Below are positions 8,386 through 9,421 of a DNA stretch of 64,000 bases, piece by piece (within the stretch, counting starts at the first letter, position 1; every line of letters starts with the position of its first letter). Made by a program: the position numbers and the translations under genes. The stretch comes from Halogeometricum sp. S1BR25-6. GTDB taxonomy: Archaea; Halobacteriota; Halobacteria; Halobacteriales; Haloferacaceae. The stretch spans positions 496,001 through 560,000 of the forward strand of contig NZ_JAMQOP010000001.1 in assembly GCF_031624495.1 (NCBI RefSeq). The letters are read 5' to 3'. The notes under the pieces were generated by a model that ran no database searches, was not told where the DNA came from, and saw nothing but the letters and a program-made list of their open reading frames with translations.

Positions 8386-8651
8386 CTCGCTTCCCTGCCG
8401 CATCGACTCGCGTCGTCCACGCGGACGACGAACCGGCGCGCGTCTGGCCGCTCGACTCGAAGCCACGACGCTAAGGCGCACGCGCCGCTTTCTCTCGCGT
8501 TTCTCGCTCCGGTGAGCGGCTGCTTTGTTTCGCCCTCGCCGTTCGTCGGCCTGCGGAGACCGCACGACTGCGGTCGTGTCCCGTGTCAGTGCCTCTCTCG
8601 CCGGCTGCGAAACAGAAGGTACAAATGACCGGACGCCTTCGAACGAAGTGC

Positions 8652-8723
8652 GGGCTCGTAGATCAGTGGCAGATCGCTTCCTTCGCAAGGAAGAGGCCCG
8701 GGGTTCAAATCCCCGCGAGTCCA
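8652..8723 (+). tRNA. tRNA-Ala (anticodon CGC)
   Basis: A 72-base cloverleaf without intron and without an encoded CCA tail. The acceptor stem GGGCTCG pairs with CGAGTCC, followed by discriminator A. The anticodon stem CTTCC/GGAAG encloses loop TTCGCAA with anticodon CGC at 8684-8686, which decodes GCG alanine codons. The T-arm is GGGG-TTCAAAT-CCCC. The gene lies downstream of rps10. Its 3' end is repeated twice further downstream (see the repeat entries). Confidence 0.96.
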
Positions 8724-8732
8724 CTACATTCT

Positions 8733-8773
8733 CTCGACACCACCGACGAGCGAAGCGAGTCGCGTGTGTCGAG
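8733..8773 (+). repeat. Inverted repeat just after tRNA-Ala
   Basis: CTCGACAC at 8733-8740 is the exact reverse complement of GTGTCGAG at 8766-8773, giving an 8-bp stem with an AG-rich loop. It begins 10 bases after the tRNA end. It may aid 3' processing or termination, or be part of the integration scar. Confidence 0.5.
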
Positions 8774-8833
8774 TGCTGACGTGTACTGTCCGAGCGGAGA
8801 TTTGAGCAGCGAGCGAACGTAGTGAGCGAGTGA

Positions 8834-8854
8834 GTTCAAATCCCCGCGAGTCCA
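8834..8854 (+). repeat. Second copy of the tRNA-Ala 3' end (att-like)
   Basis: These 21 bases are identical to the tRNA 3' segment at 8703-8723 (T-loop, T-stem 3' strand, acceptor 3' strand and discriminator). The rest of the tRNA is absent, so this is not a gene. Direct repeats of a tRNA 3' end are what tyrosine-integrase elements leave behind. No integrase is present here. Confidence 0.8.
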
Positions 8855-8904
8855 TTTCCTTTCGCTCACTTCGTTCGCTCCAGTCGATGGACTCGCTTGC
8901 TGCT

Positions 8905-8978
8905 CGAAAATCTTCGATTTTCGGCATGACGAGACGGCTTCGCCGTCTCGAACCACCCCGCTCGCTTCGCTCGCGGGG
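8905..8978. repeat. Three consecutive perfect hairpins
   Basis: Stem CGAAAATC/GATTTTCG (8905-8923, loop TTC), stem CGAGACGGC/GCCGTCTCG (8930-8950, loop TTC) and stem CCCCGC/GCGGGG (8956-8978). They lie between the second and third tRNA 3' fragments. Similar TTC-loop palindromes are common in haloarchaeal intergenic DNA; their function here is unknown. Confidence 0.75.
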
Positions 8979-8979
8979 A

Positions 8980-9022
8980 CCCCGCGAGTCCACTAACTTC
9001 TCTCGACACCGTTGATGAGCGA
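8980..9022 (+). repeat. Third copy of the tRNA-Ala 3' end with its natural flank
   Basis: CCCCGCGAGTCCACTA at 8980-8995 repeats tRNA bases 8711-8723 plus three flanking bases. The similarity continues with TTCTCTCGACACC and a GATGAGCG-like tail, matching the DNA directly after the real tRNA (8724-8753). The shared flank indicates that the DNA between the copies was inserted or duplicated at this site. Confidence 0.75.
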
Positions 9023-9148
9023 CCTACGCGCCGACACCTCGCACGCCACTCGTCCAAACCACTGCAACCGCAGATTTTTCTAATCTGACAACGGTGACAC
9101 GAGTAGGAAACGCCGCGATTCGCGCGACGCGAGCGGCGAGGACAACCA

Positions 9149-9421
9149 ATGACGAAACAGACCACCTCCACCGGGCCGGACGGACGCTCGATACCAGACC
9201 TCTCCTACGACGAACTGGCGAACGAAATCGTCGGCGTCGTCGCCGAAACGAAGGGCTGCGACCCGACGACGCTGCGTCCGGTCTCCCAGGTGATGGACGC
9301 CGAGGCGGCCGACAGAGTGCTCGAAAACCCGAACACGGGTCTCTCGGTCGCCTTCGAGTACGAGGATGGCGTCGTCCGCGTGGACGACCACGAAGTCCGA
9401 TTCGAGATGTCGAAGGAGTAG
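9149..9421 (+). CDS. HalOD1 output-domain protein
   Basis: 90 residues. The whole protein matches the HalOD1 pattern: a YDELANEIVGVVAE helix, a D-TTLRPV strand, and a C-terminal VAFEYEDGVVRVDDHEVRF beta hairpin. HalOD1 is a small haloarchaeal domain found alone or at the end of signalling proteins; it is proposed to act as an output module, with biochemistry unknown. It is the first gene after the tRNA-Ala scar. A second HalOD1 gene lies at 30028-30297. Confidence 0.85.
   Translation: MTKQTTSTGPDGRSIPDLSYDELANEIVGVVAETKGCDPTTLRPVSQVMDAEAADRVLENPNTGLSVAFEYEDGVVRVDDHEVRFEMSKE

Follow-up and report, generated by a model that had tools for sequence, protein, structure and literature searches.

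A probable array of hairpin mini-elements behind tRNA-Ala(CGC) of Halogeometricum sp. S1BR25-6 suggests that a type of very small mobile DNA is widespread at haloarchaeal tRNA genes

The window, i.e., the whole 64-kb stretch of Halogeometricum sp. S1BR25-6 DNA that was analysed, contains one tRNA gene, a tRNA-Ala(CGC) at 8652-8723 (Rfam RF00005, 68 bits; ARAGORN placed its end at 8724), which anchors the features described here; gene and features are given on the forward strand. The last bases of the mature tRNA, the 21-nt sequence GTTCAAATCCCCGCGAGTCCA at 8703-8723, recur as an exact copy at 8834-8854 (copy 1). The shorter CCCCGCGAGTCCA is present at 8711, 8842 and 8980 and, with one mismatch allowed, at no other site in the 64 kb; in shuffled sequences it occurred 0.45 times on average and reached three occurrences in 1 of 100 cases. 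The third occurrence comprises 13 nt of the tRNA 3' end (copy 2, 8980-8992), or 16 nt together with the flank. The two recurrences reported by an earlier, sequence-only reading of this DNA, 21 nt exact at 8834-8854 and 16 nt with flank at 8980, were thus confirmed. Between the tRNA gene and copy 2 lie two units, each ending in a copy of the tRNA tail. Unit A (8724-8854, 131 bp including the terminal copy) has an architecture that matches the corresponding locus of H. pallidum (L081) and loci at other tRNAs. It starts with a left hairpin (8733-8773), in which CTCGACAC at 8733-8740 pairs with GTGTCGAG at 8766-8773; between A units of different loci the stem of this hairpin varied with complementarity kept, as judged by eye and uncounted. 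An antisense arm, CGGAGATTTGA at 8795-8805, is the reverse complement of the tRNA T-loop and the 3' strand of the T-stem with one mismatch, and its counterpart in H. pallidum is the perfect CGGGGATTTGA. Copy 1 provides the 3' arm of the unit A hairpin. Unit B (8855-8992, 138 bp including the terminal copy) was delimited by comparison with H. pallidum, where it measures 88 bp; the extra bases in the window look like further palindromes. Its antisense arm, TGGACTCGC at 8888-8896, is the reverse complement of the acceptor 3' strand of the tRNA, and an inner hairpin, CCCCGC...GCGGGG at 8956-8978, was assigned from its position and the DNA fold. The 13 nt of copy 2 are identical to the sequence that bounds an integrase-bearing island in a sibling species (G004). 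Folded as single-stranded DNA, 8725-8980 gave a z-score of -5.7, and 0 of 200 shuffled sequences folded as well.

The segment 8711-8753 has 86 % identity over 43 nt to 8980-9022, and outside of the core 24 of 30 positions are identical between 8724-8753 and 8993-9022. The sequence-only reading had taken the resemblance after the third copy for the natural flank of the tRNA. In H. denitrificans the position equivalent to window 8993 onward holds an A unit truncated inside its hairpin. On this comparison and the resemblance to 8724-8753, the sequence following copy 2 (8993-9050, right end approximate) is probably what remains of the left portion of an A-type unit that is older and has decayed, rather than natural flank. 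With 131 and 138 bp the two complete units are below the size for an integrase gene, and the open reading frames listed over them are short or run through from neighbouring genes. In an Rfam search of 8500-9160 only the tRNA itself passed the cut-off, hence the region of the units holds no RNA family beside the tRNA in that collection.

A unique scar at one tRNA gene can be ruled out, as the same plan was found behind many tRNAs. In the genome of strain S1BR25-6, 20 of 47 tRNA entries were followed, at a distance of up to 600 bp, by an exact repeat of 13 nt or more from their own 3' end. The controls, upstream copies and copies of the 5' end, gave 2 of 47 each, in both cases the two tandem tRNA pairs; two of the 20 positive entries are such tandem neighbours (Asp, Gly), so that about 18 remain. 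The 47 entries are Rfam matches. They list one tRNA-Phe two times, in one case with 54 bp of downstream sequence, and treat the two identical tRNA-Arg(GCG) genes as one, so that the counts may be off by one or two. The two tRNA-Arg(GCG) genes lie 1.8 kb apart (L031, C1:619935-621798), each with its own A unit, which suggests a joint duplication of gene and unit. At another site (L193, C1 near 390.6 kb), where no tRNA was called, an A-type unit stands behind a tRNA-like 3' end; a tRNA may have been overlooked here, perhaps on account of an intron, or the end may be a former attachment copy. For tRNA-Ala(CGC) in named relatives, 80 loci were located through the neighbouring ribosomal protein S10 and six were dropped (four with the tRNA not found, two too short). 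Among the remaining 74 loci, 24 had an exact 13-nt copy downstream and none upstream; 8 of the 24 carried a long and 19 a short copy, some of them both. The distribution was patchy within a genus, with two copies in Haloferax sulfurifontis, one in H. denitrificans and none in H. prahovense. A larger pool of up to 206 tRNA loci had a copy of at least 12 nt downstream in 87 and upstream in 1 of 206 cases. A part of this pool was chosen for containing hairpins and is biased for frequency; unbiased in this respect are only the 47-tRNA count, the 74-locus count and the scan of the S1BR25-6 genome for the hairpin pattern described below.

Copy lengths in the 206-locus pool were bimodal, with 54 copies of 12-17 nt, 67 of 21-25 nt and a single one of 19 nt, and define two classes of units. 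The inserts often measure about 80-175 bases, end in a copy of the tail of the neighbouring tRNA and fold into a hairpin with this copy. In class A, the 21-25-nt copy begins near the first bases of the T-loop and reaches to the discriminator base, and the median spacing is 123 bp (quartiles 111-146); in class B, with a copy of 12-17 nt, the median spacing is 89.5 bp (quartiles 82-143). A typical A unit starts with a left hairpin, followed by the antisense arm, which corresponds to the T-loop and the 3' strand of the T-stem; about 20-70 nt of loop separate this arm from the copy. In a B unit the antisense arm is complementary to the 3' strand of the acceptor, and an inner hairpin precedes the short copy. 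The antisense arms follow the local tRNA: in 94 A units, selected on the T-loop with the stem left free, the arm formed 3.49 of 5 Watson-Crick pairs with its own T-stem on average, and the maximum of 1000 shuffles was 3.01. Only 20 of 53 class B copies were accompanied by a clear antisense arm to the acceptor (8 or 9 of 9 pairs), compared to 5 % of the decoys. Similar loop sequences were seen by eye at different tRNAs and in different genera, with stems tracking the local tRNA. The loop motif GAGCGNAGCGAG was considered as a tRNA-specific signal and rejected, as it was not enriched (50 matches versus 58 for the reversed control); the longer GAGCGAAYGNAGTGAGCGA had 13 matches, 8 of them at most 300 bp downstream of a tRNA. 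Some distal loops are of the form GC-GNA-GC with flanking G.A mismatches. Loops of this type form very stable hairpins in single-stranded DNA, and a like role here is only suggestive. As RNA, the A hairpins had a median fold z-score of -5.4 (60 of 91 hairpins, simple custom shuffle).

These strong folds, the co-variation of arm and tRNA and a location nearly always close downstream of a tRNA would suit a function in the host, with the hairpins acting as RNA in the termination of transcription or in guiding the 3' processing of the pre-tRNA. We consider such functional trailers very unlikely: occurrence is patchy within genera, as in the three Haloferax species, 50 of the 74 tRNA-Ala(CGC) loci are without the exact 13-nt copy, decayed units stand behind intact ones, and the Rfam result given above includes no family except the tRNA.

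The A hairpin was searched with the pattern GGATTYGA-N20..50-TTCRAATCC. The S1BR25-6 genome has 8 distinct sites, all just downstream of tRNAs (the eighth, C2:953657, 46 bp past the tRNA at C2:953539-953611), and the reversed pattern had none. In the order, 130 of 145 sampled genomes had a match, with up to 26 forward-strand matches per genome, mostly not checked singly. Thirty-seven distinct sites were checked, seven from the S1BR25-6 genome and 30 loci from the order-wide scan, and 34 of these lie 32-233 bp downstream of a tRNA. The exceptions are a displaced site whose core matches a tRNA-Leu(TAG) 2.4 kb away (L251) and two sites with no tRNA within 700 bp (L232, L236). Outside of the order, 13 of 189 genomes of the phylum had a match: 11 with no tRNA in the stretch examined, one with a match inside a tRNA-Ser gene (L398), and one with a real array. 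The latter, in a genome of another order (G294; L396:1480-2099), repeats the 28-nt end of tRNA-Ala(TGC) three times, with 1, 1 and 2 mismatches, at 177, 361 and 538 bp behind the tRNA, with antisense T-arms and a spacing of about 180 bp. Haloarchaea thus show the phenomenon frequently, and at least one case exists beyond them. Haloviruses, plasmids and phages were considered as carriers or sources and rejected. For 80 of 120 viral-contig stretches listed, which were screened for symmetric matches or high GC, the matches were by eye mostly chance or bacterial-type tRNAs; among those listed, one match (L284) is a hairpin of the A type that follows a tRNA-Glu at 46 bp. Twelve plasmid records had short matches covering 11-20 % of the query, and the best 20 of 67 phage rows were tRNA-Thr genes of mycobacterial phages.

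Comparison with empty sites demonstrated a precise gain of units. In Natrialba chahannaoensis (L103) an A unit and a decayed B unit, together 197 bp, are absent from two relatives (L087, L099). With these 197 bp skipped, the flank matched the empty sites at 99 of 109 and 97 of 109 positions, compared to 54 of 85 and 52 of 85 directly after the tRNA. Corresponding values were 84 of 109 versus 54 of 96 for Natronococcus pandeyae (L108 against L122) and 78 of 104 versus 57 of 90 for Natrinema zhouii (L114 against L099). Six filled loci were aligned in total; for L149 against L148 the signal was unclear, and the counterpart used for L096 was itself a filled site. The insert is flanked by a direct repeat of the tRNA 3' end, and the tRNA stays intact. 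These tRNA-tail repeats act like traces of precise insertion at the tRNA 3' end, which bears out the view of the sequence-only reading that the copies are integration footprints. It had also named the same structure in distant genera, with islands never found there, as an observation that would speak against this origin: the structure does span distant genera, but islands were found there as well.

New material enters next to the tRNA, and older units, some of them decayed, are located downstream. Direct cases of stacking are the sibling species G004, where about 32 kb separate tRNA-Ala(CGC) from an older B unit, the tRNA-Thr(CGT) of S1BR25-6 (L054, L194; C1:1.098-1.110 Mb), followed by about 11 kb, a core copy and then a displaced A unit, and H. 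denitrificans with a B unit in front of the truncated A unit. The polarity of copy decay agreed with this order to a degree that depends on the mismatch threshold. With up to 2 mismatches of 13, 46 loci had at least two copies and the proximal copy was the better one in 15, the distal in 3, with 28 ties (p 0.0075; upstream background 1 of 206). With up to 1 mismatch the numbers were 8, 2 and 25 (p 0.11), and with up to 3 mismatches 27, 6 and 30, at an upstream chance background of 37 of 206. The dependence on the threshold is offset by the direct stacking cases, and the array in G294 widens the range, so our weighing of the readings was left unchanged.

Tandem arrays also occur. Behind a tRNA-Lys (L259:1839-2171) three 111-bp units are identical, and behind a tRNA-Gln (L262:1600-2137) 111-bp unit repeats have 0 and 1 differences; ordinary unequal recombination could have produced such exact arrays. 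In two further loci (L120, L040) single N positions were observed inside repeated units, hence arrays may break or collapse in draft assemblies. Exact arrays would also be expected if the units were errors of replication or repair, in which the self-complementary tRNA 3' end causes template switching and the products then spread through gene conversion and unequal recombination. This explanation accounts for inverted and direct copies of the local tRNA end in one unit and for arms that match the local tRNA, easily obtained if templated on the spot, and the three-copy array in G294 indicates a process not strictly confined to haloarchaea. It has to be seen as unlikely, as loops appear similar by eye at different tRNAs and genera, the two core-length classes have fixed boundaries, and outside the order 1 of 189 genomes has such an array, whereas 130 of 145 genomes within the order have the pattern. 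The sequence-only reading had proposed a different history for the window, an element lost or shrunk to small units. Against it speaks that units of such a size turn up with one hairpin plan at 30 tRNA anticodon types, in two copy-length classes and in exact tandem arrays; they are better regarded as units in their own right, and the shrunken-element idea is probably wrong. Discrete units inserted serially at tRNA 3' ends are very likely.

Larger insertions share the site. An island with a tyrosine integrase and a matching core at tRNA-Ala(CGC), of the kind that the sequence-only reading had advised to look for in relatives, was found: in G004 (L190/L191, C6 about 192.9-225.0 kb) an island of about 32 kb is located between tRNA-Ala(CGC) and the 13-nt core and ends with an open reading frame for a 336-aa tyrosine integrase adjoining the CCCCGCGAGTCCA core. 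Among the genes of the island are a BREX-like set (PglX, PglZ, BrxHII) and a candidate defence gene of the SIR2 type, which makes it a defence island at tRNA-Ala(CGC). In comparison to a phage collection, the integrase had 65.4 % identity to Harhisp1, 42.7 % to HHPV4 and 39.8 % to Saline Natrinema sp. J7-1 virus 2, which we take to be SNJ2; by its sequence it resembles the SNJ2 type. For a Halovivax provirus of the SNJ2 type a review (PMC8371274) lists 13 bp, and it locates SNJ2-type sites at the amino-acid end of the tRNA. Since B units share the core of the G004 island, an SNJ2-type integrase acting in trans on this core would be the best candidate for class B. A further genome (G011) has an integrase-like open reading frame 280 bp downstream of tRNA-Ala(CGC), with a weak profile match below the cut-off. 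For class A, with its core of 21-25 nt, no recombinase could be tied to the units. PMC3119063 describes a 22-nt tRNA-Ala duplication beside an integrase for a Haloquadratum prophage. At a tRNA-Glu (L256:2860-8007) an exact 155-nt repeat, 4.9 kb apart, holds 42 nt of the tRNA and an A unit, and the segment has an open reading frame of 294 aa matching HSTV-2-type integrases (46.5 %); A units may therefore also travel with larger elements. At a tRNA-Phe (L257:3277-7192) 3.7 kb with GTPase-like and ATPase-like open reading frames, assigned by eye, are directly followed by a second, near-identical A unit, possibly a gene-carrying cassette; no core is visible ahead of the second unit, where the core may have decayed, in contrast to L256, which has its own core. 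Directly behind a tRNA-Met of S1BR25-6 (C1:627389-628376) a tyrosine recombinase match below the TIGR02249 cut-off was observed, possibly a further integrated element.

Direct repeats of a tRNA end are what integrative elements leave, and integrase-bearing insertions at tRNA-Ala(CGC) as well as the tRNA-Glu segment with its repeat-borne A unit would agree with units that are deletion remnants, each a normal integrative element minus everything between its two ends. Such remnants are improbable, about to the same degree as template switching: against them stand a fairly narrow unit spacing (medians 89.5 and 123 bp), one hairpin plan at 30 anticodon types and exact tandem copies. In addition, two large insertions (at tRNA-Ala of G004 and tRNA-Thr of S1BR25-6), whose ends were inspected by eye, showed neither A nor B hairpins there, thus no autonomous parent was found.

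Compared with the closest known systems, the units are similar to the SNJ2-type integrative elements of haloarchaeal pleolipoviruses and islands in sharing a short tRNA 3'-end core, its duplication on insertion and the same tRNA. They differ in the size of the class B units, mostly about 80-140 bp and devoid of an integrase, and in the antisense arm and hairpins of B units, which were not seen at the ends of the G004 island. HSTV-2-type integrases also target 3' parts of tRNAs, and the L256 repeat includes an A unit, but their core (42 nt in L256) is about twice the class A length. Integron cassette arrays share with the units the serial insertion beside a fixed anchor and an inverted and a direct core per unit, and attC sites are imperfect hairpins of similar size. 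The attC core has the consensus GTTRRRY, whereas the core of our units is a tRNA end that begins with GTTCAAA or GTTCGAA in the units read and breaks the consensus at the first R. Membership in the integrons was rejected, with the integron integrase profile TIGR02249 over its cut-off in 0 of 60 relatives; weaker matches in 43 of the 60 genomes and in 14 of 14 control genomes are as expected of tyrosine recombinases generally. The main text of Ghaly et al. 2022 (PMC9668308) contains no occurrence of 'Halobact'. MITEs and the small mobile repeats of haloarchaea (SMR, PATE in Haloquadratum) are likewise short, non-coding, palindromic and mobile with no enzyme of their own, and are described in PMC3119063 as either lacking target duplication or tied to known transposons. 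Our units, in contrast, are located at the 3' end of a tRNA gene and carry copies of that tRNA. Viewed as MITEs are, their duplication is the tRNA end and their inverted arm is tRNA sequence; precise presence and absence against relatives was found in the alignments of L103, L108 and L114, while a presence/absence difference within a species or an excised form was not seen. No description of the units was found in the largely open-access literature searched, including passages of PMC3119063, PMC8371274, PMC11078007 and PMC9668308.

We therefore read the window as holding a short array of non-autonomous hairpin mini-elements, two intact and one probably decayed, that arose by serial site-specific insertion. 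Taken loosely, as the combined best explanation, this reading is probable, clearly less so than serial insertion by itself. A unit would enter at the 3' end of the tRNA, leave the gene intact and end in a copy of the tail, from the T-loop to the discriminator base in class A and of the last 12-17 nt in class B. A later unit or a full island would enter at the tRNA again and leave the older units downstream, where decay would follow. As many units have an antisense copy of the core, one strand could fold into a hairpin that recreates the double-stranded tRNA end, and a tyrosine recombinase may act in trans on this folded end. Catalysis by a recombinase, use of the folded form and mobilisation in trans are what we infer. 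Tyrosine recombinases that move the units in trans are a serious possibility, slightly short of an even chance, and the folded single strand as the substrate of recombination is a tentative suggestion, considerably less probable. A length of 80-175 bp is short for a double-stranded circle and counts against the best explanation in general. Doubtful to a similar degree as the folded substrate is the further idea that tRNA genes serve as attI-like anchors for attC-like cassettes, which would move as folded single strands and be joined to the chromosomal tRNA by a tyrosine recombinase. If true, it would be an integron-like capture system unrelated to integrons, for which the tRNA genes throughout an archaeal order would serve as platforms.

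In practical terms, the arrays add attachment-like cores next to tRNA genes, by which programs for island detection or assembly could be misled. The evidence suggests that a type of very small mobile DNA is widespread at haloarchaeal tRNA genes, which would offer a natural system for studying the recognition of tRNA genes by integrases, the mobilisation of mini-elements in trans and single-strand recombination outside of integrons. For the haloarchaea themselves, the observations suggest that the 3' flanks of many tRNA genes in this order were built by the repeated insertion of tiny hairpin elements, and such insertion would leave at each tRNA a layered, roughly ordered record of insertions.
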